NCBI GenBank assembly: GCA_037576195.1
Contig: CM075104.1
Location: forward strand, 11,734,211-11,798,210
Origin: Phytoseiulus persimilis
Taxonomy: Eukaryota > Arthropoda > Arachnida > Mesostigmata > Phytoseiidae
Direction: 5' to 3'
Length of the DNA: 64,000 nt
Part shown: piece after piece, positions 3,475 to 45,914 of the stretch
How the letters are laid out: each line of letters begins with the position of its first letter
Position numbering within the stretch: the first letter of the stretch is position 1
Notes under the pieces: model-generated
Seen by the model: only the letters and a program-made list of their open reading frames with translations
Database searches by the model: none
Told to the model about the DNA's origin: nothing
Translations under genes and position numbers: made by a program

Positions 3475-4539
3475 GGACAAACAAACATACAAACAAACAA
3501 ACAGACCCTGGATTTTTATATAACTCCCCTCCGCTCCTTCCGTTGCTCTACTGCTGGCAAGCTATGTGCGTGTTTGAGTGGTGTTGTATGTGGTGAACGT
3601 GTACCGTTGTCGTGTGCCGTGGTTTGCAGTGAACGTCTCTGCCATTGTCCGTTTTGTGCTGGTGTCTAGCTGCCAGTGTCCCTCTAATCGCTATTCTCAC
3701 TCGTCCGAAGGAAGCCAATCCTCATCGCTCCACTTGTCTGTGAGAGACCGTCAGCTCTCTCGCGGGCTCCTTCCCCCGCTTCTGCCCTCTGACGTGTCCC
3801 GGAGTTCGCGACAAGCCGCGACCTCCTTGCTTCCTCCCTCGCTGTTTTCCCCATCATTATCCTTTCCAAGTACCCTGCGACAGCCTTCCACTCCTCCCTC
3901 CCCCTTAGCCCGAACTCCACCGTCTCCCTCACACCAGTCCCCTCAAAAACCTTGAATTCCCTCCCGTCTGATGTCTCCAAGGGCGTCGCAGTGCAAAACG
4001 GTGTGCTCCACCCCGTCGGACTCACCGGACGTGCACAGGACGCAGACATCAAAGTCCGTTTTCCCTATTTTCACCATGAATGTCTGGAACTGCCCATGCC
4101 CCGTCAGCACCTGGGTCATACCGTGCTTTAAATCCCCGAACTCGTAGCCCATCCACCCCTTGAGATCCCTGATTAATCCCCTCGTCCATTTGCCCTTCGA
4201 GTCCCCGACCAGTCCCGCATCCCACTCCCTCTGCCATTGTCTGATGGTATCGTCCCTGGCTGTTTCCCGTCCCTCCCCTTCCTGCCCCCAGCACCTGGTT
4301 CTCTCTAACGCCAGGAGGTCCCACGGCACCATCTTGGCGAGGACAAGGGCAGCCTCCGTCGAAACCGTGCTACACGCTCGGCTCGCACGGACCGCCAGCG
4401 TCCTCTGCGCCGCTCGGACGGCCTCCCGCCTGCCCTGAGTCCCGAGCGCCAGGTGGGCCCAAGCCGGGGCCGCGTACATTGCCGCTGATTCCGCAACTGA
4501 CGCCTGCAGCCGTCGCTGCACCCCCCCAGCCCTGCCGAC
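3475..4539 (-). mobile_element. R1-type LINE copy b, 3' part (C-terminus of ORF2 and 3' UTR)
   Basis: An open frame at about 3943-4530 on the minus strand encodes the post-RT region of R1 ORF2. It contains SVAESAAMYAAPAWAHLAL, TVSTEAALVLAKMVPW and a C-terminal CCHC-type finger (CVLC...HTVLHC). Below about 3943 lies a putative 3' UTR, ending at 3475-3510 in an imperfect (TTTG)n tail on the minus strand. The 5' continuation of this copy is at 10087-10296, on the far side of the hAT insertion. Joining the two flanks, minus one copy of the 8-bp duplication, restores alignment with the copy at 13201-13270. Confidence 0.85.
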
Positions 4540-5465
4540 TAGGGGTCGCAAAAATCCACGAGTCCGAGTCCGAGTCCGGACTCGGACTCGCGAGTCCGGC
4601 GAGTCCACGAGTCCAGGTGAGGGCGCAAAATCTCGGTTACGGGTTCGAGTCCGAAAATCTCTGATTCTGAGCTAGTACGATCGGAAACGGAGGCTGACTT
4701 TCGTTGAGAATCACTGACGAGAGGGGTGATTCCGAGACCAATCTGGCCATTACTTCCCAACTCTGGAGGGGTAATTCCGAGACCAATCTGAGCATTACTT
4801 TCCAACTCTGGAGGGGTGATTCCTAGACCAATCTGAGCATTACTTTCCAACTCTGGAGGGGTGATTCCGAGACCAATCTGAGCATTACTTTCCAACTCTG
4901 GAGGGGTGATTCCGAGACCAATCTGAGCATTACTTTCCAACTCTGGAGGGGTGATTCCTAGACCAATCTGAGCATTACTTTCCAACTCTGGAGGGGTGAT
5001 TCCAAGACCAATCTGCGCATTACTTCCCAACTCTGGAGGGGTAATTCCGAGACCAATCTGAGCATTACTTTCCAACTCTGGAGGGGTAATTCCGAGACCA
5101 ATCTGAGCATTACTTTCCAACTCTGGAGGGGTGATTCCGAGACCAATCTGACCATTACTTTCCAACTCTGGAGGGGTAATTCCTAGACCAATCTGAGCAT
5201 TACTTCCCAACTCTGGAGGGGTAATTCCTAGACCAATCTGACCATTACTTTCCAACTCTGGAGGGGTGATTCCTAGACCAATCTGAGCATTACTTTCCAA
5301 CTCTGGAGGGGTGATTCCTAGACCAATCTGACCATTACTTTCCAACTCTGGAGGGGTGATTCCGGTGCCAATCTGAGCATTACTTCCCAACTCTGGAGGG
5401 GTGATTCCTAGACCAATCTGAGCATTACTTTCCAACTCTGGAGGGGTGATTCCGAGATCAATCTA
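4540..5465. repeat. Left TIR of the hAT element including a 45-bp tandem array
   Basis: Positions 4540 to about 4720 are unique terminal sequence matching the reverse complement of 9918-10086. The left end has an extra GAGTCC-rich stretch of roughly 30 bp. From about 4720 to 5465 the sequence is a tandem array of about 16 units of 45 bp, reading GGGGTGATTCC...AATCTGAGCATTAC on the plus strand. Units differ by a few substitutions. It is the inverted counterpart of the right array. Confidence 0.93.
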
Positions 5466-5524
5466 ACTCTACGGATTTTTATTGCTTTTGAAATTTGTTC
5501 CATGTCTTGTCTCTTTCTACGAAG

Positions 5525-7678
5525 TTATAGCATAGCGGTGTCGCGATAGAGAGCCCGAAGTACCACCAGGTTGTCGAGTGTTCTGGGGCTGAGGGAATTC
5601 CGAGCTTTTGAGCAAACGTGATTCATGATGCTGAACTCACGCTCAGCCTTCACTGACGTTGGCTGAACAGTCAGCAGTCGGTTGCAGCACGATTTGAGGA
5701 TCATGCCATGTTGCTCGCCAGCTTCGAAACGTTTCATTTCCCGGAGTATTCTTCCGGAGATCGGCTCCGCCTCGTACGGAGTCCTTGGCGAACGCAACGG
5801 CGTACTGAATACATTCTGGAAATTCATGGCGAACGAAGGCGTTGCGCTAGGCAAGAGCGCTTCCTCTCCGATGCCGCCAGAAACATTGTCAACATGCGCG
5901 ATACCGTTGAGCAGGTTCCGAATCTCCGATTGGCTGAGCCGCGCGATGCCGAGCGATTCTTCGAAAGACCAGTCATACCTGGGGTCCAGGAGATATTGTA
6001 GGACACTCGAGTAGCCTGTCCTTCGTTTCAGTACTTCCACGGCCACCGAATTGCTGAGAAGTATTGACAGACCCGAGTTAAGGTCGTGCAGGCATTGCAG
6101 GAGGGCGAGTATGATGCGGTCAGCATACACGAGGTTGGCCTGCGCAGAGCTGAGCATGTCTATAGCGGTTTTGAAAGGCTTGATCGCCGCCAGGATATGC
6201 TCCAAGTTCTGCCTCTCCTGTGCATTGATAGCACTCTCGTTTGAGTCCAAGAGAACTGTATTGATCGATGGCAGAATCAATAAGGCTCGCTCGAGCATTG
6301 CTGCCGTCGACGACCAGCGAATTTTGGTATCAAGAAGCACCTGGAAATGAGAAGAAAAGTTGGTTTAGCCGTCCACAAACCCCATGAGGATGATGACGTA
6401 AATACAATGAATCGTCGCGAAATAAGCCACGAGCTACGACTGAACGCTCACCTGGAGACTCTTGCCGTGGTTTTGCCTGGTAACTTCTCGAAGCTTGTGG
6501 CGCTTGGGGGCACTTCTCTTGATGAGTTTGAGGGTCTTTCGCAGCCGGCGCAAACTCGTCTTCACGGAGACGACCACTTCGTTCTCTCTTGCTTCGTCCT
6601 CGGACACAGCCGCGGCGAAGCATTGGAAGTCGCCGTCATCTGATTCGCCGTCCATGGAGTTTTGAGAGATGTCATCGCCGGATGCATCATCCAGGGAGCT
6701 CCGCGGCTCGCTCTCGGTTTCCATGTCCGTGTCGTCCTGGACGTCGTCGCCTGATGAAACGGCTGCCTCGTTCTCGTCGTCGCCTTCATCCACATCATCA
6801 CTGGAGAACGTTTCACCGCGCTGCGAGATGGACACACTCGCCGATAGGTCGAGGACCTTCTGGAGAGCGATATGGAGGGCGTGAGCAAAACACAGCTGCG
6901 ATTTCAATCCCAGCTTCGAAACGGTGCTCTTCATCACAGCTGCCCCGTCCGTTACAGCAAAGAAGCAGTTACGGATGTTCACTCCATACTCTTGTAGGCG
7001 ATTTGTAACTGCCGCGGCGATGGTGTCGGCGTTCCCTTTACCGGCGAGTTGTATCAGTCCGAGGTATGTATCAGGGCCAGCATGATCATCACCGGCCGCT
7101 GGTTCTGTCCGCAGACTCAAGCTGATGTAGCTGTGCTGAGAATTGGATGCGACGGCCTCGTCGAAGCATATGGAGAAGCTTTTTCCTGACCTTTGGTACT
7201 GCTCCAACGAGTCTCGCACGCTCTTCCGAGCTTCGTTCGCCTTCGTGTTCACGATCGCTTTCACTGAGTTCGGCGATTTCGGCGAGGCTCGTCCGACAAG
7301 CGACTCGAGGAGGAGTTTGAAGGTCGGTGACGTGGCTATGGTCTTGAAGGGAACGTTATCCTCGGCCGCGAGTCTTGCGATGATGGTGTTTAAATCGTAG
7401 TGCACGACAGCAGCATCGAACGCAGTTGACAATTGTGACGACTGTGACGCTGTCGCTTGCGCAACTCGCCTTGGGATAGATGGAGATGGCGGTGGGATCA
7501 TGCAGTGAACAGTCCTGAGATGCTTTAGCATCGAGGTCGTTTGGCCCATGTATGCCAACATCCTACGACAAATCCCGCACTCTGTCTTCACCACGTCGTC
7601 CGAGATCTGAACGAGTGTGAAGTGGCTCCACACCCAAGCTGAGAACCCTCCGAGTTCTGACGTATTCGCGGAAGCCAT
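5525..7678 (-). CDS. hAT transposase, two exons, apparently intact
   Basis: Exon 1 is 7678-6452 and exon 2 is 6340-5525. The intron between them (6451-6341, 111 bp) has GTGAG at the donor and AG at the acceptor, and both boundaries are phase 0, giving about 680 residues. I chose ATG 7678 because the codon further upstream is GTG. Visible domains are an N-terminal BED-type zinc finger (CGIC...HLRTVH, about residues 35-60), a catalytic core with FDEAVASNSQ and AVTDGAAVMKS supplying the expected aspartates, a long acidic insertion near residues 290-370, and a C-terminal hAT dimerisation block (SVKAEREFSIMNHVCSKAR). It should cut and rejoin the element at its TIRs in the nucleus. No internal stop is seen, so the element may be autonomous. 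Confidence 0.88.
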
Positions 7679-8289
7679 TGCGAGTAACACGATTCGAAGC
7701 TGAACTTACTCGAACACTAGCGAAGGAGTTTGTGGCGCTGATCGGGATCGGGTTGAGAGCTCGGAGTTCGCTGGGACTACACAATGAGGGAGTGGATGGA
7801 TAGTCTCACGATTCGTCCGAAAGAACAGTGATTCCTTCAGTCTCGACGCCTCTTTTTATTCGCTTCGCTCCCCTCTCGTGAGGTCTCTCTCTTTCTGCCC
7901 GCCATATTTTCCCCCCTGAGCGTTCGTTGTTTCTCCGGCCTTCTGAACCGTGCTCGTTCTCAGATTTGTTGACGGACATAGCGAAAATTGTAAACGAGCG
8001 ACCCCTAGTATAGCGGTACAATCCAAAGACGATCACATCTACGCCGCCAATTAGATTGCATTGTAATTGGTAGCCAGAAGGCAGTCAGATGTGCCCCCAT
8101 GTGAAACATGTGCAACATGTGCAGGCGGCGAAGTCGACACCGCGGTCGGGGCGAGATTTGAATCTATGGAGAAACACAGCAAGCACCGTCTGGCGGAGCC
8201 CAATCAGGAGAATATGGCAAAATCGTTCGTTGCTTCCTAGCGGCGAAATCAGGCCGTTCCTCTAGATCTAGATCTGAAGAGAAACACCG
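7679..8289. other. 5' region of the hAT transposase gene; no gene seen
   Basis: This stretch lies upstream of the transposase start and inside the hAT element. It contains only short, unrecognised open frames. It presumably holds the promoter and leader, but I see no confident promoter motif. Confidence 0.5.
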
Positions 8290-8509
8290 TGTGGAGTACG
8301 GTCTACGGGGTCCTCACTCGAGTTTAGGACGTTTCGAGGCCAGACTGAAGATCGACACGGAAAAAGATGACGGGCGATGATTTGGTTGAACACCTCACAA
8401 CTGCACTTAGCAGACTAACTCTTTATTGTTGTTCTCGGGGGAGAGGCGACGTTGTCTCGACATTCGAGGCTCGGGAGACGCGCGAATATATCGGTCATCA
8501 CAATTGACA
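8290..8509 (-). mobile_element. Solo LTR (220 bp) nested in the hAT element
   Basis: The segment starts TGTGGAGTAC and ends AATTGACA, and is flanked by identical 5-bp repeats CACCG (8285-8289 and 8510-8514). It is the reverse complement of the 220-bp element at 25396-25615, which has its own 5-bp duplication. The minus-strand orientation is chosen because that strand carries AATAAA and a TATA-like GATATATT in the usual order. No internal retroelement sequence is attached, so it is a solo LTR left by LTR-LTR recombination. Confidence 0.92.
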
Positions 8510-8576
8510 CACCGCAAGCACCCCGTCTACTCTACCAGGTCTATTCCTAGCCCGACTAAGCTTCGCTCGAGTCCTC

Positions 8577-10086
8577 CAGAGTTGGAAAGTAATGCTCAGA
8601 TTGGCACCGGAATCACCCCTCCAGCGTTGGAAAGTAATGCTCAGATTGGCACCGGAATCACCCCTCCAGCGTTGGAAAGAATTGCTCAGATTGATCTTGG
8701 AATCACCCCTCCGGAGTTGGGAAGTAATGCTCAGATTGGTCTTGGAATCACCCCTCCAGAGTTGGGAAGTAATGCTCAGATTGGTCTTGGAATCACCCCT
8801 CCAGAGTTGGGAAGTAATGCTCAGATTGGTCTTGGAATCACCCCTCCAGAGTTGGGAAGTAATGCTCAGATTGGTGTTGGAATCACCCCTCCAGAGTTGG
8901 GAAGTAATGCTCAGATTGGTCTTGGAATCACCCCTCCAGAGTTGGGAAGTAATGCTCAGATTGGTCTTGGAATCACCCCTCCAGAGTTGGGAAGTAATGC
9001 TCAGATTGGTCTTGGAATCACCCCTCCAGAGTTGGGAAGTAATGCTCAGATTGGTCTTGGAATCACCCCTCCAGAGTTGGGAAGTAATGCTCAGATTGGT
9101 CTTGGAATCACCCCTCCAGAGTTGGGAAGTAATGCTCAGATTGGTCTTGGCATCACCCCTCCAGAGTTGGGAAGTAATGCTCAGATTGGTCTTGGAATCA
9201 CCCCTCCAGAGTTGGGAAGTAATGCTCTGATTGGCACCGGAATCACCCCTCCAGAGTTGGAAAGTAATGCTCAGATTGGTCTAGGAATCACCCCTCCAGA
9301 GTTGGGAAGTAATGCTCAGATTGGTCTTGGAATCACCCCTCCAGAGTTGGAAAGTAATGCTCAGATTGGTCTTGGAATCACCCCTCCAGAGTTGGGAAGT
9401 AATGCTCAGATTGGTCTTGGAATCACCCCTCCAGAGTTGGGAAGTAATGCTCAGATTGGTCTTGGAATCACCCCTCCAGAGTTGGGAAGTAATGCTCAGA
9501 TTGGTCTTGGAATCACCCCTCCAGAGTTGGGAAGTAATGCTCAGATTGGTCTTGGAATCACCCCTCCAGAGTTGGGAAGTAATGCTCAGATTGGTCTTGG
9601 AATCACCCCTCCAGAGTTGGGAAGTAATGCTCAGATTGGTCTTGGAATCACCCCTCCAGAGTTGGGAAGTAATGCTCTGATTGGCACCGGAATCACCCCT
9701 CCAGAGTTGGAAAGTAATGCTCAGATTGGTCTAGGAATCACCCCTCCAGAGTTGGGAAGTAATGCTCAGATTGGTCTTGGAATCACCCCTCCAGAGTTGG
9801 GAAGTAATGCTCAGATTGGTCTTGGAATCACCCCTCCAGAGTTGGGAAGTAATGCTCAGATTGGTCTTGGAATCACCCCTCCGGAGTTGGGAAGTAATGG
9901 CCAGATTGGTCTCGGAATCACCCCTCTCGTCAGTGATTCTCAAACGAAAGTCAGCCTCCGTTTCCGATCGTACTAGCTCAGAATCAGAGATTTTCGGACT
10001 CGAACCCGTAACCGAGATTTTGCGCCCTCACCTGGACTCGTGGACTCGCCGGACTCGCGAGTCCGAGTCCGAGTCTGCGACCCCTA
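8577..10086. repeat. Right TIR of the hAT element including a 45-bp tandem array
   Basis: About 30 units of 45 bp fill 8577-9925, with core AGTAATGCTCAGATTGG followed by GGAATCACCCCTCC. They are very homogeneous, and a higher-order copy is visible because the distinctive AATGCTCTGATTGGCACC variant recurs at 9220 and 9670. The final ~165 bp are the unique terminal sequence, ending in GCGACCCCTA. The array is nearly twice as long as the left one, so the TIRs have expanded unequally. Confidence 0.93.
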
Positions 10087-10296
10087 CTGCCGACCCTCGG
10101 CATCAGCATGCCCAGCCTGCGTGCCGTCTCCCTCGCCCTCGCCGCCACATATTTCACATGCTCCCCTCCCGTGAGCGCGCGATCCAGCACAACCCCTAGA
10201 CATTTCACCCTTTCTACTAGCTTGATGTCTATCCCGCCTAAGCTCAGCCTGATTCCCTTGGCCCTTTTCCTCCCGATAAGATACAATGCTTCTGTT
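10087..10296 (-). mobile_element. R1-type LINE copy b, 5' part (ORF2 after the RT core)
   Basis: The minus strand encodes KTEALYLIGRKRAKG through MLMPRVG, matching the intact copy at 13210-13450. It begins abruptly at 10296, where the 45-mer satellite starts, so the copy is 5' truncated and appears inserted in the array. The rest of its ORF2 lies at 3943-4530 beyond the hAT insertion. Confidence 0.88.
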
Positions 10297-12045
10297 TTAC
10301 TTTCCAACTCTGGAGGGGTGATTCCGGTACCAATCTAGCCATTACTTTCCAACTCTGGAGGGGTGATTCCGAGACCAATATGGCCATTACTTTCCAACTC
10401 TGGAGGGGTGATTCTGAAAACAATCTGAGCATTACTTCCTAACTCTGGAGGGGTGATTCCGAGACCAATCTGAGCATTACTTTCTAACTCTGGAGGGGTG
10501 ATTCCGGGGTCAATCTGAGCATTACTTCTCAACTCTGGAGGGGTGATTCCGGTACCAATCTAGCCATTACTTTCCAACTCTGGAGGGGTGATTCCGGTAC
10601 CAATCTAGCCATTACTTTCCAACTCTGGAGGGGTGATTCCGGTACCAATCTAGCCATTACTTCCCAACTCTGGAGGGGTGATTCCGAGACCAATATGGCC
10701 ATTACTTTCCAACTCTGGAGGGGTGATTCTGAAACCAATCTGAGCATTACTTCCTAACTCTGGAGGGGTGATTCCGAGACCAATCTGAGCATTACTTTCT
10801 AACTCTGGAGGGGTGATTCCGGGGTCAATCTGAGCATTACTTTCCAACTCTGGAGGGATGATTCCGAGACCAATCTGACTATTACTTTCCAACTCTGGAG
10901 TGGTGATTCCGAGACCAGTCTGAGCATAACTTCTCAACCCTGGAGGGGTGATTCCGAGACCAATCTGCCCATTAGTTCCCAACTCTGGAGGGGTGATTCC
11001 GGGACCAATCTGAGCATTACTGTCCAACTCTGGAGGGGTGATTTCGGGACAAATCTGAACATTACTTTCCAACTCTGGAGGGGTGTTACCGAGACAAATC
11101 TGAACATCACTTTCCAACTCTGGAGGGGTGATTCCGAGACCAATCTGAGCATTACTTTCTAGCTCTGGAGGGGTGATTCCGGGGTCAATCTGAGCATTAC
11201 TTTTCAACTCTGGAGGGGTGATTCCGGTACCAATCTAGCCATTACTTTCCAACTCTGGAGGGGTGATTCCGAGACCAATATGGCCATTACTTTCCAACTC
11301 TGGAGGGGTGATTCTGAAAACAATCTGAGCATTACTTCCTAACTCTGGAGGGGTGATTCCGAGACCAATCTGAGCATTACTTTCTAACTCTGGAGGGGTG
11401 ATTCCGGGGTCAATCTGAGCATTACTTCTCAACTCTGGAGGGGTGATTCCGGTACCAATCTAGCCATTACTTTCCAACTCTGGAGGGGTGATTCCGAGAC
11501 CAATATGGCCATTACTTTCCAACTCTGGAGGGGTGATTCTGAAACCAATCTGAGCATTACTTCCTAACTCTGGAGGGGTGACTCCGAGACCAATCTGAGC
11601 ATTACTTTCTAGCTCTGGAGGGGTGATTCCGGGGTCAATCTGAGCATTACTTTTCAACTCTGGAGGGGTGATTCCGGTACCAATCTAGCCATTACTTTCC
11701 AACTCTGGAGGGGTGATTCCGAGACCAATATGGCCATTACTTTCCAACTCTGGAGGGGTGATTCTGAAAACAATCTGAGCATTACTTCCTAACTCTGGAG
11801 GGGTGATTCCGAGACCAATCTGAGCATTACTTTCTAACTCTGGAGGGGTGATTCCGGGGTCAATCTGAGCATTACTTTCCAACTCTGGAGGGGTGATTCT
11901 GAAACCAATCTGAGCATTACTTCCTAACTCTGGAGGGTTGTTACCGAGACAAATCTGGCCATTACTTTCCAACTCTGGAGGGGTCATTCCGGGGTCAATC
12001 TGAGCATTACTTCTCAACTCTGGAGGGGTGATTCTGGTACCAATC
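10297..12045. repeat. 45-bp satellite array, first block (about 39 units)
   Basis: Tandem 45-bp units read AACTCTGGAGGGGTGATTCC then a variable tract then ATTAC on the plus strand. They are more diverged than the hAT arrays. A five-unit higher-order repeat of 225 bp is visible, starting near 10315, 11224, 11449 and 11674, with the same order of variant units in each. Because 45 is divisible by three and the units lack stops, the array gives long open frames on both strands, which I do not treat as genes. Confidence 0.95.
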
Positions 12046-14657
12046 TTTTTTTTTTTTTTTTTTTTTTCGGGGACCAGGATCAAAAATGCGTGATGCAGAC
12101 CGAGCCACAGCCCCGCTCGGTACTGTGGGAGTCGCATACCCACTAAAAACCTAGTGTCTCCCCAACCTTCACTTTTCGGGTGAAGGTCCGCCACCCATGG
12201 CCGGAACTGCGTTGGCATTACTTCGTTACCATAGGAGCGGGAGTCGAAATTCTCAGCTCCTTATAACTACTCTACCCCAGACTACCTCCAATGTTGTCTG
12301 CCCGAGATGTCATGTGCTCCTTTTACCAAACGTGTCGTATCAAATGCTGTGTCAGGTGCCTGGGGCATTAACGCCTTCGCCAGTCCGGCCCGGGCGGACC
12401 GCCGACCCATCTTCAACGTCAACCCCAGACTCCCCCCCTTCCCTCCCGCCCGTTTCCAGTGGGTTGCTCCGGCGTCTTGGCGGAAGAACATCCCTTTCTA
12501 GCCGGAGAGTCCCTCCATGAACCACTGCTCTTCGCCTTTCTTCCCGTCTTACCTTTTCTCTCATGACGGCTTCAAAGAATCTCATCACTAGCGTGAATTG
12601 TTCCTGACCTTGCATGCCCCACTCCCACATCTCCCTGACTGTTTCCCCCATTGCATCCCCTCTTGTGACCCCTCGGGCCTCCGCCAACGCTGCACAACGG
12701 AGCACCGTATGATCAGCATCATCCGCGGCGCCAGAGTCGCAGAGAACGCAGACGTCCGACAGGGCTTTACCGATTCTGACCATGTAAGTCTGGAACTGAC
12801 CATGTCCAGTAATGACTTGCGTTGCCCCATAGCTTAGTTCCCCGTATTCACAATTAACCCACCCCTTGAGGTCCCTGATTATCTCTCGCGTTCGTTTCCC
12901 CTTTGACTCTCCAAGCAGTCCCACATCCCATTCCCTCTGCCATTCCCTCAAAGTATCCTCCCTCGCTTTTTCACGGCCCTCCCCTTGTTCTCCCCAACAC
13001 CTGGCCCTCTCAAAAGCCAGGAAGTCCCATGGAACCATCTTCGCGAGGACGAGGGCAGCCTCAGTCGAGACCGTGCTGTAAGCCCGGCTCACCCGAAGCG
13101 CCAGCGTCCTTTGAGCCGCTCTGATAGCCGTCCGAGCCCTCCGGGTCCTGAGTGCAAGGTGCGCCCACGCCGGGGCCGCGTACATTGCCGCCGACTCCGC
13201 AACCGAAGCCAGTAGGCGTCGCTGCCCATCCCGTACCCCGCCAACCCTCGGCATTAGCACTCCCAGCTTGCGTGCCGTTTCCCTTGCTCTCGCCATCACA
13301 TACTTAATATGCTCCCCTCCCGTGAGCCCACGATCCAACATCACCCCCAGATATTTAGCCCTCTCTACCAGATGGATTTCGGTCCCCCCCGAGCTCAGCT
13401 TGATCCCCTTTGCCCTTTTCTTCCCAATCAGATACAGTGCTTCAGTTTTGTGCGGCGCCAGCTCCAGACTTATTAGCCCCATCCATTCATGGATCATCCC
13501 CAATGCCAGATTCCCCACCCTTTGTACATCCCCTTCCGTTTTCCCAGTCACCATCAAGGCCAGGTCATCGGCGTACGCCAGCAGCTCGGCTCCCTTCGGC
13601 AGATCCAACCTCAGAACCCCATCATACGCAAGATTCCACAAAGTGGGTCCCAAAATGGAACCCTGCGGAACCCCCGCCGTGACTTTGTATACACCTCCGC
13701 CCGTGCTGATCCCCCTATCCCACAAATACGATGATATGATCCTCAACAGATACCCTGAGAACCCCCTATCCCCTAGCGCCTGCAAAATCTTCCCCCATTC
13801 CAGCGAATTGAAAGCATTTTTCACATCCAGCAAAACCAACAGAACGAAACCCCTTGTCTTTGTGCTTTTTGCCCTCTCCTGCACTGCCCTCTTCAGGACC
13901 CACCCTACAGCGTCAACTGTCGATAATCCCCTTCTGAACCCATATTGTTTCCCCGACAGAGCCCCCAGCTCCTCGATTTCCCCATGGACCCTTTCCACGA
14001 TAACTTTTTCGAAAAGTTTACCCATGGTATTTAGCAGGCATATCGGCCTGTGCCCCCCTCCTCCCGCTTTCGGTATCAAAACCAGCCTCGCGCTCTTCCA
14101 CTGCCCCGGAAAATCCCCCTCCCTCAACAGTCTATTGAACATTTCGCTCACCACTTTTGGCCATCTTTTGGCCAGGAGTTTTACCACTTCCGCTGGAACT
14201 CCGTCCGGCCCTGGCGCCTTGCCCTTCGCCAGTCCGTCGGCTGCCCGAATTATTTCCTGTGGACTAACCTCGTGAGCCAGCTCCACATTTCCCCATCTCC
14301 CATTCCTCCCGTATGTACAGTCCCCTCTTTCATGGCGCTCCGGGAAAAGCTCCAGAATGGTTTTCCATAGCCTATCCTGTGCCATCTCAGGCCCTTTGCT
14401 CTTAAGTTTCCCCATGACAACCTTATACGGTGTTCCCCATAAGTCCCTCTCCACTTCCCCAATCAGTTCCTTCCAGGTCCTCACCTTGCTTCTTCTAATC
14501 CCCGCCCTTAGTTCTGCTCTGGCTTCCCTATACTTGATCATATGTGCCAAGAGGGTGGCCCTCCCTTCTTCCCCCCTGTCTCTACGTCCTAGCCAGCTAG
14601 CCGTCCTACTGGCAGTTCTCTGTAGCCGGATGCTTTGTAGTAGCCATTTGCTGTAGC
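12046..14657 (-). mobile_element. R1-type LINE copy c inserted in the satellite, with poly(A) tail
   Basis: A 22-nt T run at 12046-12067 on the plus strand is the poly(A) tail of a minus-strand LINE. It is followed by a 3' UTR (12068-12351) and ORF2 (to about 14656). Both ends abut the 45-mer array: CCAATC precedes the T run and TAGCCATTAC follows the 5' junction. Those two motifs are adjacent in intact satellite units. The element is 5' truncated in the EN-RT linker. Some TAGCCATT filler is duplicated at the 5' junction. Confidence 0.93.
12352..14656 (-). CDS. R1-type ORF2 fragment with intact reverse transcriptase
   Basis: The frame is open over the whole LINE part, with no stop or shift. 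It also reads on into satellite upstream, which I exclude. It lacks the endonuclease domain. It carries the linker (LQRTASRTASW), RT motif A (LLDVKNAFNSLEW), motif B (GVPQGSILGPTLWN), the catalytic motif C (YADDLALMV), the post-RT region (VAESAAMYAAPAWAHLAL) and a C-terminal CCHC finger (CVLCDSG...HTVLRC). It ends in a charged tail at 12352. The RT residues look competent, but with the endonuclease missing and no native start this copy should not move on its own. Confidence 0.9.
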
Positions 14658-17600
14658 CATTACTTTCCAACTCTGGAGGGGTGATTCCGAGACCAATATG
14701 GCCATTACTTTCCAACTCTGGAGGGGTGATTCTGAAACCAATCTGAGCATTACTTCCTAACTCTGGAGGGGTGATTCCGAGACCAATCTGAGCATTACTT
14801 TCTAACTCTGGAGGGGTGATTCCGAGACCAAAATGGCCATTACTTTCCAACTCTGGAGGGGTGATTCTGAAACCAATCTGAGCATTACTTCCTGACTCTG
14901 GAGGGGTGTTACCGAGACAAATCTGGCCATTACTTTCCAACTCTGGAGGGGTGATTCCGGGGTCAATCTGAGCATCACTTCCCAACTCTGGGAGGTGATT
15001 CCGAGACAAATCTGAACATTACTTTCCAACTCTGGAGGGGTGATTCCGAGACCAATCTGGCTATTCCTTTCCAACTCTGGAGGGGTGATTCTGAGACCAA
15101 TCTGAGCATTACTTCCCAACTCTGGAGGGGTGATTCCGGTACCAATCTAGCCATTTCTTTCCAACTCTGGAGGGGTGATTCCGAGACCAATCTGGCCATT
15201 ACTTTCCAACTCTGGAGGGGTGATTCCGGGGTCAATCTGAGCATCACTTCCCAACTCTGGGAGGTGATTCCGAGACAAATCTGAACATTACTTTCCAACT
15301 CTGGAGGGGTGATTCCGAGACCAATCTGAGCATTACTATCCAACTCTGGAGGGGTGATTCCGGGGTCAACCTGAGCATTACTTTCCAGCTCTGGAGGGGT
15401 GATTCTGGGGCCAATGTGAGAATTACTTTCAAACTCTGGAGCGGTGATTCCGAGACCAATCTGGCCATTACTTTCCAACTCTGGAGGGGTGATTCCGGTA
15501 CCAATCTAGCCATTACTTTCCAACTCTGGAGGGATGATTCCGAGACCAATCTGGCCATTACTTTCCAACTCTGGAGGGGTGATTCTGAGACCAATCTGGC
15601 CATTACTTTCCAACTCTGGAGGGGTGATTCCGAGACCAATCTGAGCATTACTTTCTAGCTCTGGAGGGGTGATTCCGGGGTCAATCTGAGCATTACTTCT
15701 CAACTCTGGAGGGGTGATTCCGGTACCAATCTAGCCATTACTTTCCAACTCTGGAGGGGTGATTCCGAGACCAATATGGCCATTACTTTCCAACTCTGGA
15801 GGGGTGATTCTGAAACCAATCTGAGCATTACTTCCTAACTCTGGAGGGGTGATTCCGAGACCAATCTGAGCATTACTTTCTAACTCTGGAGGGGTGATTC
15901 CGAGACCAAAATGGCCATTACTTTCCAACTCTGGAGGGGTGATTCTGAAACCAATCTGAGCATTACTTCCTAACTCTGGAGGGGTGTTACCGAGACAAAT
16001 CTGGCCATTACTTTCCAACTCTGGAGGGGGGATTCCGTGGTCAATCTGAGCATCACTTCCCAACTCTGGGAGGTGATTCCGAGACCAATCTGAACATTAC
16101 CTTCCAACTCTGGAGGGGTGATTCCGAGACCAATCTGGCTATTACTTTCCAACTCTGGAGGGGTGATTCTGAGACCAATCTGAGCATTACTTCCCAACTC
16201 TGGAGGGGTGATTCCGGTACCAATCTAGCCATTACTTTCCAACTCTGGAGGGGTGATTCCGAGACCAATCTGGCCATTACTTTCCAACTCTGGAGGGGTG
16301 ATTCCGGGGTCAATCTGAGCATCACTTCGCAACTCTGGGAGGTGATTCCGAGACAAATCTGAACATTACTTTCCAACTCTGGAGGGGTGATTCCGAGACC
16401 AATCTGAGCATTACTATCCAACTCTGGAGGGGTGATTCCGGGGTCAACCTGAGCATTACTTTCCAGCTCTGGAGGGGTGATTCTGGGGCCAATGTGAGAA
16501 TTACTTTCAAACTCTGGAGCGGTGATTCCGAGACCAATCTGGCCATTACTTTCCAACTCTGGAGGGGTGATTCCGGTACCAATCTAGCCATTACTTTCCA
16601 ACTCTGGAGGGGTGATTCCGAGACCAATCTGGCCATTACTTTCCAACTCTGGAGGGGTGATTCTGAGACCAATCTGAGCATTACTTCCCAACTCTGGAGG
16701 GGTGATTCCGGTACCAATCTAGCCATTACTCTCCAACTCTGGAGGGGTGATTCCGAGACCAATCTGGCTATTACTTTCCAACTCTGGAGGGGTGATTCTG
16801 AGACCAATCTGAGCATTACTTCCCAACTCTGGAGGGGTGATTCCGGTACCAATCTAGCCATTACTATCCAACTCTGGAGGGGTGATTCCGAGACCAATCT
16901 GGCCATTACTTTCCAACTCTGGAGGGGTGATTCCGGTACCAATCTAGCCATTACTTTCCAACTCTGGAGGGGTGATTCTGAGACCAATCTGAGCATTACT
17001 TCCCAACTCTGGAGGGGTGATTCCGGTTCCAATCTAGCCATTACTTTCCAACTCTGGAGGGGTGATTCCGGTACCAATCTAGCCATTACTTTCCAACTCT
17101 GGAGGGGTGATTCCGAGACCAATCTGGCTATTACTTTCCAACTCTGGAGGGGTGATTCTGAGACCAATCTAGCCATTACTTTCCAACTCTGGAGGGGTGA
17201 TTCCGAGACCAATCTGGCTATTACTTTCCAACTCTGGAGGGGTGATTCTGAGACCAATCTAGCCATTACTTTCCAACTCTGGAGGGGTGATTCCGAGACC
17301 AATCTGGCCATTACTTTCCAACTCTGGAGGGGTGATTCCGGGGTCAATCTGAGCATCACTTCCCAACTCTGGGAGGTGATTCCGAGACAAATCTGAACAT
17401 TACTTTCCAACTCTGGAGGGGTGATTCCGAGACCAATCTGAGCATTACTTTCCGACTCTGGAGGGGTGATTCCGGGGTCAACCTGAGCATTACTTTCCAG
17501 CTCTGGAGGGGTGATTCCGGGGTCAATCTGAGCATTACTTCTCAACTCTGGAGGGGTGATCCCGGTACCAATCTAGCCATTACTTTCCAACTCTGGAGGG

Positions 17601-18978
17601 GTGATTCCGAGACCAATATGGCCGTTACTTTCCAACTCTGGAGGGGTGATTCTGAGACCAATCTGGCCATTACTTTCCAACTCTGGAGGGGTGATTCCGG
17701 TACCAATCTAGCCATTACTTTCCAACTCTGGAGGGGTGATTCCGAGACCAATCTGGCCATTACTTTCCAACTCTGGAGGGGTGATTCCGGGGTCAATCTG
17801 AGCATCACTTCCCAACTCTGGGAGGTGATTCCGAGACAAATCTGAGCATTACTTTCCAACTCTGGAGGGGTGATTCCGAGACCAATCTGAGCATTACTTT
17901 CCGACTCTGGAGGGGTGATTCCGGTACCAATCTAGCCATTACTTTCCAACTCTGGAGGGGTGATTCCGGTACCAATCTAGCCATTACTTTCCAACTCTGG
18001 AGGGGTGATTCCGAGACCAATCTGGCTATTACTTTCCAACTCTGGAGGGGTGATTCTGAGACCAATCTGGCTATTACTTTCCAACTCTGGAGGGGTGATT
18101 CCGGTACCAATCTCGCCATTACTTTCCAACTCTGGAGGGGTGATTCCGAGACCAATCTGGCCATTACTTTCCAACTCTGGAGGGGTGATTCCGGGGTCAA
18201 TCTGAGCATCACTTCCCAACTCTGGGAGGTGATTCCGAGACAAATCTGAACATTACTTTCCAACTCTGGAGGGGTGATTCCGAGACCAATCTGAGCATTA
18301 CTTTCCGACTCTGGAGGGGTGATTCCGGGGTCAACCTGAGCATTACTTTCCAGCTCTGGAGGGGTGATTCCGGGGTCAATCTGAGCATTACTCCTCAACT
18401 CTGGAGGGGTGATCCCGGTACCAATCTAGCCATTACTTTCCAACTCTGGAGGGGTGATTCCGAGACCAATATGGCCGTTACTTTCCAACTCTGGAGGGGT
18501 GATTCTGAGACCAATCTGGCCATTACTTTCCAACTCTGGAGGGGTGATTCCGAGACCAATATGGCCGTTACTTTCCAACTCTGGAGGGGTGATTCTGAGA
18601 CCAATCTGGCCATCACTTTCCAACTCTGGAGGGGTGATTCCGAGACCAATCTGGCCATTACTTTCCAACTCTGGAGGTGTGATTCTGAGACCAATCTGGC
18701 CATTACTTTCCAACTCTGGAGGGGTGATTCTGAGACCAATCTGAGCATTACTTCTCAACTCTGGAGGGGTGATTCCGGTACCAATCTGAGCATACTTTTC
18801 CAAGTCTGGAGAGGTGATTCCGAGACCAATCGACTATCACTTTCCGAGTCTGGAGGTGTGATCTCGAGACATATCTAACCATACTTTTCAAAACCTGGAG
18901 GGGTGATTCCGGGACCAATCTGACCATGCTTCTCCGAATCTGGAGAGGTGATTACGAGACCGATCTGACCATACTCCT
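14658..18978. repeat. 45-bp satellite array, second block (about 95 units)
   Basis: This continues the array interrupted by LINE copy c. Most units are 45 bp, but a 42-bp variant with CTCTGGGAGGTGATTCC recurs near 14985, 15255, 16335, 17365, 17815 and 18215. Those spacings are mostly whole multiples of the unit, so higher-order copies are present. Within 16500-17400 two-unit alternations (GAGACC then GGTACC variants) dominate. Units near the right edge (18780-18970) are increasingly diverged and drift towards the CTGACCATAC variant seen elsewhere in the window. Confidence 0.95.
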
Positions 18979-25296: not shown

Positions 25297-26527
25297 GATA
25301 CAACAAATACCAATGGTGAAATCCTACAAGTATCTTTGGCCCGATCTATCGGCAGAGGAAGACTATCTCACCAAACACTGGGAGAATATGTTCACTGTCA
25401 ATTGTGATGACCGATATATTCGCGCGTCCCCCGAGCCTCGAATGTCGAGACAACGTCGCCTCTCCCCCGAGAACAACAATAAAGAGTTAGTCTGCTAAGT
25501 GCAGTTGTGAGGTGTTCAACCAAATCATCACCCGTCATCTTTTTCCATGTCGATCTTCAATCTGGCCTTGAAACGTCCTGAACTCGAGTGAGGACCCCGT
25601 AGACCGTACTCCACATTCACCAAAGCCAACCTAGCTAGCCAGAGACTTTACTCGAGAACCCTATGGAGCTTCAATGGATTTGAGGTGACAAAAATTCTCT
25701 GGAAAGCTACAGCGGTCCCGAAACTCACATATTGCAACTCAGTGATAACCATGCCGAAGAGACTGAGAAACCACATCGAGGTCGGGAAAAGAGAGGCGGG
25801 ACGGTGGGCCCTTTGCATACCACACTCCACCATACCCAACGAATTCACGGAGGGTGAACTGATGTACTTCGAGAGAATAAAACAAATGGACCCACACACA
25901 CATGGCCGAAACTTTTCCTCCAGGCTACCGAAACAACAAGCACCAGGTTCAAAGCGACAGAGAGACTCAGAAACCTGAGAACACAATTTGACCTGAGTGA
26001 CTTCGGAATAGCCAGAAACAGATCAGGACAGCCAATGTGGAACGCATTCCGCATAGACCTTGGAAAAAAGGTGCAAGATAAACTGGACTCTACGTGGAAA
26101 CAAGCCATGCATTCCAAATCCATTGGCGTGTTATCGGCGACACAAGGAGTCCAGAGGTCTCCAACAAAGGCTGCACGACAACACTCGCCGAAACCAGCTT
26201 TTAGCTCTAACGAGAGCAGGGAAGTTAACCATCCTGAAAAAGCACCGGAACCGTGACCCTTCCATCGACATCAAATGCCCAAGATGCGACATAACCGAAA
26301 CGGACAGACACGTGGTCCTGGGATGCGAGGAAGACGCTTTCTCCCAAGAGGAATTCCCCTATCGCATTGGACTCTCGCCGAACACAACTCAGGCAGTCCT
26401 ACGGAGGACGAAAACCACCCTGATAAACTGGGGGAGACAAGATCTGTGACTACAGTTCAACTCACCCCTGTAATAAGAAGGGTTCATATGATGTATATGG
26501 AAGATCAAATAAATCCAATCCAATCCA
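25297..26527 (+). mobile_element. 3' end of a LINE (post-RT region) with (AATCC)n tail
   Basis: The plus strand encodes the region after RT (YKYLWPDLSAEED, ILWKATAVPKLTYCNSV) and, after frameshifts, a C-terminal finger (CPRCDITETDRHVVLGC, 26273-26330). The CDS ends near 26449. The 3' UTR has AAATAAA and a microsatellite-like tail of AATCC repeats ending near 26527, typical of several LINE clades. The coding part is interrupted by a 220-bp solo LTR at 25396. Since the LTR plus its duplicated 5 bp is 225 bp, the frame resumes in phase afterwards. I cannot place the clade firmly. Confidence 0.75.
25396..25615 (+). mobile_element. Solo LTR (220 bp) nested in the LINE fragment
   Basis: It starts TGTCAATTGTG and ends TACTCCACA, and is flanked by identical 5-bp repeats TTCAC (25391-25395 and 25616-25620). 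It is the same family as the solo LTR at 8290-8509 but in the other orientation. It contains GATATATT and, downstream of it, AATAAA. Confidence 0.92.
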
Positions 26528-30369: not shown

Positions 30370-33300
30370 TTAATTTACGGCTGGCGCCACATCTATCTTG
30401 TAGAGTAGCTGGATGGGTCTTTTCAGGAATTTCCCCGTCGGTAGTCGCACGATCACGGTTCTGACGCGTCCGTCTGAGCCTCCCTCCCCGCGGCAAACAG
30501 AATGCACGCGGGCCATGGGCCAGTACGCTCGTGACGCCGCTGGATCATCTAGGAGCACTATATCGCCCTCTTTCAATGATCTACTTTCTACCGGTAGCCT
30601 TGCTAAATTGGATTTCAGCTGAACCAAGTACTCTTTGCGATATCTTGCCCAAAACGCGTTCATGATGTTCTGCTGATATTTCCATCTTTCCGATAATATG
30701 ATTGGTGTGGCTAACTCCGACGTGTTTATCACGTTCGTTAGATCTGGCAGCGCTGGCTGCACTTGGTTCCCGTATAACAAATCTGACGGCCTTAACGGTA
30801 GCAGCTCATCGGGATTCGTGCTGACGCACGTTAACGGCCTGTCGTTCACTATTTTCTCGATGTCCGTGAGAATCGTTTCTAGTTCCCTAAACGTGGGAAT
30901 GTTCCTCCCCAGGATTTTCCTCAACGGGCGTTTAATCGTCCCTATTAGCCTTTCCGTGAAACCATTCCTCCACGGCGCCCTCTCCGTCGAGTGAAACCAA
31001 CTGAGCGAATTCTTTGCTAGAAAACTCTGCGTTTCCGCCGCTCTTGACAAATCGAACATGGCTTTCACTTCTTTCGCCGCCCGTCGGAACGCAGCGGCGT
31101 TGTCCGAATAAAAAGCTTTAACCGTGGGGTTCCTGTTGTAGAACCGCCGCATGGCCATCAAGAATTCATACGTGGATAAATTCTCGACCAGTTCTATCCT
31201 TACTGCCCTCGCTACTGGACATACGAAAATCATTGCATACGCTGGAACCTTTCTCCCAGCGGAATTCCTGACCGTGAGTGGTCCCGCCGCGTCAACACCT
31301 GTTGTGTGAAACGCTGGTGCTGTGGCCACTCTGAACCCAGGCAAGTCCGGCATCTCTTCGGCCGCTGGTCGCGCCTTGAAACGATCGCATGTGCGACACG
31401 CCACCAGCGCCTTGCTAGCGGCACGACGTGCTCTTAACACGAGAAACCTCCTCCTTAACCGCTGTAGAATCCCTTGCACCGCGCCGGCGTGCAGACATAG
31501 TTGCTCATGCGTCCACCGAATGTATGCCGCTACCACCTCGTTCTCTCCTGGAAGAATCACTGGATTCTTGATGTCGAACGTGACATCTTTGAGATTACTC
31601 AACCTCGACCGACACCTGATGAGCCCGTCCGCATCCAGGAATGGACTGAACTGGAAAATCTCGCTCTTTTTCGACAGCTCCTTGAGCCCCTGGCTGAGTT
31701 CTGCCCCGAAATGCTGCTGTTGCACCCGTTTGAACACCTCCCGTTCCGTAGCTTGCCATTCTGGCGCCGTGACTGTCTGTAGCCACTGTGGTTTGAGAAC
31801 CCTCTTATACCGTCTCCATCGAAAGATGTACGCCAAAACTCTCATCGACTTCGCCCAAGAAGAGCCCAACGGTATATTCAGCATTCCTACGCTCGCCGTG
31901 GTTGCTCCAACGAAACACTGCGACCTTTTCTCGCTCGCGACCTCCCGTTCTAGCTCGTCTGGGTTTAAGGAATGACTCCGAGGCATACCCATAGTTCCCA
32001 ACCAACTCGGTCCCGACAACCAGAACTTTCTGAGTTCCGCCGTATCTAGCGCTGAGAATCTCGAAACAAGATCTGCCGGGTTGTCCGCTGTTCTGACGTA
32101 TCTCCATTGCCGTGCTTCCGAACTACTCTGGATTTCTCTGATGCGGTTCTCCACAAAGCTCTCCCACCGCTCCGGTCGATCTCTAATCCAAGCTAGGACA
32201 CATGCGTTGTCGCACCAGAAATTCACCGATACAAAGGGAACGTTCACCGCCTCGCCAATTTTCTTCGCGATCCTCGTGGCAACAATGGCACCCAACAGCT
32301 CCAGTCTATGGATGGACCATTCCCCCTTCAACGGTGCTACTCTGCCCTTCGCCATTATGAAAGCTACCTTCACGTTACCCGGCTCGCCGATATCTCTCGC
32401 ATATGCTACGCAACCATAACCCAACAAACTGGCATCGCAAAATACATGCAGTTCTTGCGCGCTGGCGCACGTCTGCCCAACCATCTTCCCGAAATTCCGC
32501 TCGACGCGGACATCTTTCACGTGCATTAAGCGACCCGTGGTTTCCAAATATTCCGCCTTATCTGCCTCGTCTAGCGGTGCGTCCCAATCTAGTTTTTTCT
32601 GCCAGTACTTCTGGAGCAGCCTCTTGAATCCTAGCATTATTGGCGCGACAAGACCGATTGGATCGAAAACTTGACTAGCGCCCTTCAGCAAAGCTCTCTT
32701 CGATGGAGAACCCGCCTTGAAAAACTCGATTGTCTTAGTCGCGTCAATATGCAGCGAATCCGCTCTTTGATTCCATCGGACGCCCAGAAATTTGAAATTC
32801 TCGTCTTGGAACGTGACGGTCGCATCCGGATATTTTGCTGTGATGAATTCCCCGAGTTCCGCTGAATTCGTTGACCACTTCTTGAGCGGAAAACATCCCG
32901 CAGCAAACGACTCATTCAGGACTTCCACCACTTTTTGTCCCTGTTGGACATTTTCCGCGCCTGCCAATAGATCGTCGACGTAGAAATATTTCTTTACGAA
33001 TTCAAGGAGTGTTCGATGCTCCGGTCTCCGCGCGATCGTGTGCTCTAGATGCAATCGGATCCCCGCGCAGTGTTGGAATGGTGCCGAGATCAAGCCGAAT
33101 GACAACCGACACGATCGCATTTCTCGAAACTTGGCTCTCGGATTCTTGCTGATTCCTAACGGCCACAGAAACCTCAAAAACTTCCTATGTTCCGGCGTGA
33201 TTTTGAATTGTAGATATGCCCTTTCTATATCTGCCGTTATGACTATTGGCAACTGACGAAACTGTAACACCACCGCAATCAACTCCCTAATGAGATTTTC

Positions 33301-35898: not shown

Positions 35899-36016
35899 CC
35901 TGCCACTATATTTCTTCAAGCGTCACTCAGAAAATTCTCCTTCAGGCGTGACCTTGTCCGACCTCGCTCGAGCGCTGGCTCTTGCGTGGATTCTTCTCTT
36001 GACCTTCTGACACCAC

Positions 36017-45871: not shown

Positions 45872-45914
45872 TAGGGGCTCGCAAGAATACGCGAGTCCGA
45901 GTTCGCGACCCCTG
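45872..45914. mobile_element. 43-bp miniature hAT remnant
   Basis: The segment starts TAGGGGCTCGC and ends GCGACCCCTG, with CGAGTCCGAG inside, like the termini of the hAT at 4540-10086. It is flanked by GCCACAAG (45864-45871) and GCCACAAA (45915-45922), a 7-of-8 match expected of a worn hAT duplication. Almost nothing but the two tips remains. Confidence 0.7.

Follow-up and report, generated by a model that had tools for sequence, protein, structure and literature searches.

A hAT transposon with arms of a 45-bp satellite in the mite Phytoseiulus persimilis

Two questions are open: by what route satellite arrays become dispersed in a genome, and why tandem-repeat arms of kilobase length are found in some transposons. 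One locus of Phytoseiulus persimilis bears on both. The locus lies in a 64,000-nucleotide stretch, hereafter the window, at positions 11734211-11798210 of contig CM075104.1 (C4 in the following; assembly GCA_037576195.1) in a genome of 181 Mb. At window positions 4540-10086 a hAT element with satellite-built arms is inserted in a long interspersed nuclear element (LINE). We regard this element as a mobile satellite carrier because its end arrays use a 45-mer that also forms separate arrays. With a probability of roughly 60%, taken jointly for all parts of the interpretation, it is an autonomous-looking hAT transposon, presumably active as judged from its anatomy, with Foldback-like arms that carries, resizes and redistributes a satellite, the arrays being passengers.

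Anatomy and boundaries of the element

The element and its surroundings comprise the following features, in window coordinates.

4532-4539, no strand: left copy of the target-site duplication (TSD), CTGCCGAC, an exact match to the right copy
4540-4720, plus strand: A-end terminal repeat on the left, 181 bp, with tip TAGGGGTCGC and a GAGTCC-rich subterminal part
4721-5464, plus strand: A-side array, 16 units of the 45-mer, by Tandem Repeats Finder (TRF) and unit scan
5465-5562, no strand: inner flank LB, overlapping the C-terminus of the transposase
5525-6340, minus strand: transposase exon 2, with Dimer_Tnp_hAT (PF05699)
6341-6451, minus strand: transposase intron, GT-AG
6452-7678, minus strand: transposase exon 1, with zf-BED (PF02892)
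7998-8007, minus strand: third, internal tip TAGGGGTCGC, found in 5 copies
8012-8289, no strand: inner flank RB, first part, which also adjoins a second hAT-like core
8290-8505, no strand: 216-bp nested insert, missing from locus L021 and others
8506-8572, no strand: inner flank RB, second part
8573-9926, minus strand: B-side array, 30 units of the 45-mer, by TRF and unit scan
9927-10086, minus strand: B-end terminal repeat on the right, 160 bp, with tip TAGGGGTCGC at 10086
10087-10094, no strand: right copy of the TSD, CTGCCGAC, an exact match to the left copy
10297-12046, plus strand: free satellite array of the 45-mer, outside the element
12953-13443, plus strand: paralogous empty site in a second LINE copy, with a single 8-mer at 13238-13245
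14656-18972, plus strand: free satellite array of the 45-mer, outside the element

The two types of end, A (TAGGGGTCGCAAAAATCCACGAG...) and B (TAGGGGTCGCAGACTCGGACTCG...), share 99.3% identity over 145 bp and are unlike in their outermost ~40 bp. The A-side and B-side arrays are mutually inverted, with every unit at exact 45-bp spacing. The first-pass annotation of this DNA had noted hAT tips, an exact 8-bp duplication, near-identical terminal sequence and inverted arrays of ~16 and ~30 45-mers, all of which were recovered with tips at 4540 and 10086, CTGCCGAC on both sides and 16 plus-strand and 30 minus-strand units. Its description of a seemingly intact two-exon transposase also holds, the 680-aa protein being encoded on the minus strand by exons at 7678-6452 and 6340-5525 with zero internal stops.

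Both domains of the transposase match Pfam past the curated cut-off (PF02892, E 5.7e-7; PF05699, E 2.9e-5). These are hAT domains, whereas foldback elements of the Mutator superfamily would have a Mutator-type transposase. Of two homologues retrieved from databases, the better one is 25% identical across the catalytic region and C-terminus. Regions of the putative catalytic D-D-E motif, which in hAT transposases belongs to an RNase H-like fold, align with homologue P0001. Comparison with solved Hermes structures gave a weak C-terminal match, E about 0.08. Among the copies, L011 keeps an open transposase reading frame and L021 has one internal stop.

The boundaries of the element are fixed by the LINE. 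The joined flanks minus one duplication match the second LINE copy with no gap where they meet, and because this empty site fixes the element boundaries, the 45-mer arrays are inside the mobile unit; the outcome which the first-pass annotation had named as contrary, empty sites that place the arrays outside, was not observed. Genome-wide, 17 elements of 296-13,363 bp, the window element included, are flanked by matching TSDs, 15 exact and 2 at 7/8. The main list, restricted by design to tip pairs with at least 7/8 TSD bases, contains 14 distinct elements, 13 of them exact and one (L022+L059, 13,363 bp) at 7/8, and four more pairs picked on tip position alone gave 2 exact TSDs, 1 at 7/8 and 1 at 6/8. 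Loci with a single recognised tip (e.g. L012, L016, L018, L020, L023, L028 and L058) are excluded from the element count. An unselected check covered all opposite-oriented perfect 10-base tip pairs separated by 150-14,000 bp, both in the window and in loci L009-L058: of the resulting 14 pairs, the outer pairs are exact at 8/8 in 9 of 9 cases and 5 internal-tip pairs agree at 2/8, the probability of an exact 8-mer match by chance being ~1.6e-5. TSD-bracketed arrays were seen in copies on four large contigs. The TSDs follow the pattern nTnnnnAn, a target preference stated for Hermes in the available parts of PMC10368747; among the 17 elements, 16 have T as the second base and 15 have A as the seventh.

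Two internal features touch on how the core was assembled. Judging by the third tip, at 8007, the core with the transposase may originally have been a shorter element that became joined to these arms; this tip adjoins CGCTATAC/CGCTATGC, and a near-identical 8-mer, GCATAGCG, is observed at 5530-5537. The 216-bp insert is ~97% identical to a reversed copy at window 25396-25615, has further copies in the genome and is probably a nested miniature inverted-repeat transposable element (MITE).

Copies, array length and shared arms

The first-pass annotation had proposed a search for other copies sharing these ends, and such copies are present, as the 17 elements show. Exact tips number 39 for A and 35 for B against 0 for each reversed-pattern control; with up to 2 mismatches, 149 A and 151 B tips are found against 6 and 0 in the controls. 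Each of the 14 elements scored for units contains at least one, with a range of 1 to 154, inverted arrays being present on both sides in 8 and in one orientation only in 6; single arrays are of 1 to 56 units. The architecture is therefore of Foldback type, with long inverted tandem-repeat arms and variable unit number.

Comparison of array lengths between copies, likewise proposed in the first-pass annotation, included L011, the core of which is 99.55% identical to the window core over 3,108 bp. A-side and B-side units number 16+30 in the window and 24+16 in L011, near-identical cores thus being joined to arrays that differ in unit number, which indicates that array length changes in steps of whole units. 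The order of units is shared between the two copies at 13 units on the A side, against a mean of 7.6 and a maximum of 11 in 2,000 shuffles. The core itself is flipped with respect to the A and B tips in L013 and L022 and not in the window, L011, L014, L017 and L021 (2 of 7). In two elements, L026 (2,717 bp, 55 units) and L019 (8 units), the core is missing and only ends and satellite are present; these tip-array-tip elements suggest that satellite blocks are moved in trans. At L058 an A tip is joined straight to an array in mid-unit, at a short shared stretch.

The arms are not confined to one core. The first part of RB recurs at 88% identity at C4:1743109 and C3:24194389, beside sequence unlike the core of the window element, and LB with 45-mers adjoins yet another sequence in 4 loci read, of 8 short matches; arms are therefore common to different cores. 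The core at C4:1743109 contains a 288-aa open piece that matches the Hermes transposase at E 7.8e-4, and this gene piece occurs at three further genome places. No Pfam match was obtained in the four pieces tried, the C-terminal piece gave no match in the Protein Data Bank, and similarity to the first transposase is not significant. One 45-mer unit borders this core at the left edge of the stretch read and 13 border it on the right; no tip of the second hAT element was seen in the same stretch. The candidate TAGGGATTCGAATC at L073 position 618 was rejected as an end of the second hAT, its orientation being wrong for that end. From position 618, L073 carries TAGGGATTCGAATC and, after it, numerous repeats of GATTCGAATC, which may together be a further hAT-like end whose subterminal repeats are palindromic. 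As a tentative and rather doubtful extension, array and inner flank could act together as an interchangeable arm, shared by two or more hAT transposase cores that are unlike each other; hAT transposition of such arms would then be the main route by which the 45-bp satellite scatters, and satellite homology, not the transposase, would pick the cores and ends that recombine.

Several other tip arrangements were observed. Among the places listed (100 of 149 A and 100 of 151 B), nine A-B pairs measure exactly 42 bp from tip to tip (C1:2869737, 3001462, 3014966, 15653526, 28173553, 30907895 and 34984834; C2:4790534, which is L038 1501-1542; C3:12446399), and no A-B pair between 42 and 296 bp occurs among the same places. 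The flanks of the L038 pair, the only ones seen, agree at 6/8. Such pairs may have been left by deletions via the repeated GAGTCC motif, or they may be a very small mobile unit. A diverged tip-to-tip unit of near 42 bp lies at window 45872-45914, with flanks GCCACAAG/GCCACAAA agreeing at 7/8. At least 16 B tips, 5 of them exact and 11 with a single mismatch, are clustered within 0.29 Mb at C3:23712301-24000807, which suggests local amplification.

The 45-mer outside elements and the origin of the arrays

Exact matches to the 45-mer pattern number 20,809 in the genome (control 0), 172 of them within the 14 elements. A rarer variant has 689 matches, the first 100 of which define a sample of 23 array loci on contig C1 below 22.1 Mb. 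That part of C1 has 34 A or B tips when up to 2 mismatches are allowed, and each of them is more than 15 kb from all 23 loci; the nearest exact tip is at a distance of 20.5 kb. Distances were measured from the first or last listed unit rather than the array edge, and the tips listed (100 of 149 A, 100 of 151 B) extend past the sampled stretch at every mismatch level. The sampled arrays are therefore not in recognisable element copies. Diverged 44/45-mers at 37-43 kb and near 60.8 kb of the window suggest that the satellite is old. When the 45-mer repeats were translated in order to trace the satellite at protein level in other species, no candidate had three words in common.

Combined, these results are consistent with a mechanism in which the transposase would cut at the tips and move everything between them, satellite included, leaving 8-bp nTnnnnAn duplications. 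The 45-mer arrays would be passengers, probably captured beside an end, and L058, with its A tip fused in mid-unit, is a suggestive case of such capture. Arrays would grow and shrink by whole-unit exchange, either unequal exchange or gap repair, and inverted arrays could pair and recombine such that the core is sometimes flipped. Exchange of arms through satellite homology would allow different cores to use the same arms. In this manner the element would both spread and resize satellite blocks.

Other origins of the arrays have to be weighed against this passenger mechanism. The first-pass annotation had proposed that the 45-mers are transposase-binding sites expanded by unequal exchange. The whole-unit differences between copies are as unequal exchange would give, and this part stands; the proposed origin as binding sites is not supported by the data. 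By analogy, the repeats could be subterminal sites for the BED domain of the transposase, expanded because more sites would raise transposition, as has been argued for Galileo, and the arrays do lie directly inside the ends in both arms. THAP sites of Galileo sit in tandem repeats of its terminal inverted repeats, according to the available parts of PMC3688188, and because those arm repeats do hold binding sites the idea stays testable for the 45-mer. We nevertheless consider it improbable. The tip motif is found in the 45-mer no better than in shuffles, 20-43% of 1,000 shuffled units scoring as high against the element ends, by part of the end. Exact TSDs also flank elements with only 1-4 units (L021 with 4 scored units, L025 with one), although arrays could have shrunk afterwards. 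Among 30 A-tip loci (of the 39 exact A tips, in 3-kb pieces), a scored unit is present within 1.5 kb inside the tip in 18 and absent in 12; one of these 12, L053, is the A end of L021, where a single unit is visible by eye. Element units are no more conserved than free units, with a mean entropy per position of 0.336 bits for the former (352 units) and 0.337 for the latter (131 units, from the window); the lack of tips near all 23 array loci likewise speaks against a binding-site origin, and auxiliary inner binding is deemed unlikely for Hermes in the portions of PMC10368747 at hand. Two associated candidates were set aside: position-specific constraint on element units relative to free units, for which correlation was loose (Spearman 0.31) and mean entropy equal, and birth of the 45-mer from the tip, prompted by a tip-like site at window 60357 and dropped with end-unit similarity within shuffles.

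The most serious alternative, which we judge less probable than the passenger mechanism and on balance unlikely, is that the transposon came first, the 45-mer arising in hAT ends and the free arrays being relics of dead elements with decayed tips, as proposed for Tetris (PMC4079207, in the parts available), which provides a precedent. In the 8 two-armed elements the units constantly read inward from both tips, as for an ancestral part of the end; arrays also border the second hAT-like core; and the division between free and element units is not clean, the best match to an element being 0.946 and 0.952 for the two free window arrays and 0.884 (L017) to 1.0 for element arrays. In the model of Scalvenzi and Pollet, as given in the available parts of PMC12628747, loss of ends turns array-bearing elements into free arrays, and this model begins with capture of a pre-existing repeat. 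The inward orientation and the incomplete separation of units count against the arrays being passengers, as do the following: the direction of capture is probable rather than observed; no partner tip for L058 was found in the ~6.5 kb read beyond it; old tips eroded beyond 2 mismatches could hide elements among the sampled free arrays; unit order in L013 is shared with the window no more than in shuffles; and on the B side the window and L011 share 14 units, against a shuffled mean of 12.2, with 27 of 2,000 shuffles reaching 14, a signal that is weaker because many B-side units are identical. A transposon-first origin is in turn opposed by unit-end similarity not above shuffles, unlike Tetris, by the 20,809 matches set against 172 within elements, by the 0 of 23 sampled loci near a tip and by the diverged 44/45-mers. 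Finally, chance nesting of a hAT in satellite, or misassembly into inverted arms, would agree with the free 45-mer arrays that adjoin the element, but four large contigs have copies in which the arrays are bracketed by matching tips and TSDs, and an empty site lies within a LINE; short of systematic assembly error this explanation is refuted, and we give it almost no credence.

Two further observations concern neighbouring repeats of the window. The LINE at 12046-14655, whose poly(T) occupies 12046-12067, has a 45-mer array on either side and appears to be inserted into satellite, because the flanking arrays stay in register across it. An open BEL/Pao polyprotein of 1849 aa is present at 30370-35919; its best named relative, at 50% identity, is from the predatory mite Galendromus occidentalis, which would agree with a phytoseiid host, and the best match overall has 55% identity. 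COX1 gave no match in the assembly.

Comparison with known systems

Foldback arms of short tandem repeats, with a unit of ~15 bp and 8-bp TSDs, occur in the TU elements of sea urchin. No hAT element built in this way was encountered in openly licensed literature on hAT elements with foldback or tandem-repeat arms or with satellite, as represented by titles and the beginnings of abstracts. The element resembles Hermes and other hAT transposons in its 8-bp TSD with nTnnnnAn (PMC10368747, available parts), its BED finger and its C-terminal dimerisation region. Short subterminal repeats lie close to the tips of Hermes, and GAGTCC abounds in those of the present element; the difference lies in the arms, which here hold satellite arrays up to kilobases long.

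Tetris of Drosophila virilis is the closest described case found, as far as the available parts of PMC4079207 extend. It has 8-10 bp TSDs, its own repeat forms free satellite arrays, and it shares its ends with a MITE. Its units, however, are of ~220 bp, no transposase was found for it and Mutator is suggested, whereas here a 45-bp unit is accompanied by an intact hAT transposase. The Tetris unit shares 37 bp with the end, in contrast to the present element, in which no unit-end likeness above shuffles is observed. Galileo, of the P superfamily, likewise has long arms with tandem repeats but a P-type transposase with a THAP domain (PMC3688188, in the parts at hand). In miDNA4 of Xenopus, a satellite-bearing MITE, a satellite monomer or array is also located in a cut-and-paste element and capture of a pre-existing repeat has been proposed as well; it differs in being Tc1/mariner and non-autonomous, with the satellite inside the MITE and not in inverted arms (available parts of PMC12628747 and PMC9659126).

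Thus, from the parts of these papers available, the earlier cases either lack a transposase, as in Tetris, or belong to other superfamilies, as do Galileo and miDNA4. In P. persimilis, intact transposase genes, exact boundaries, an empty site, near-identical copies of unequal array length and array-only derivatives occur together, and capture, dispersal and change of arrays are therefore directly testable.

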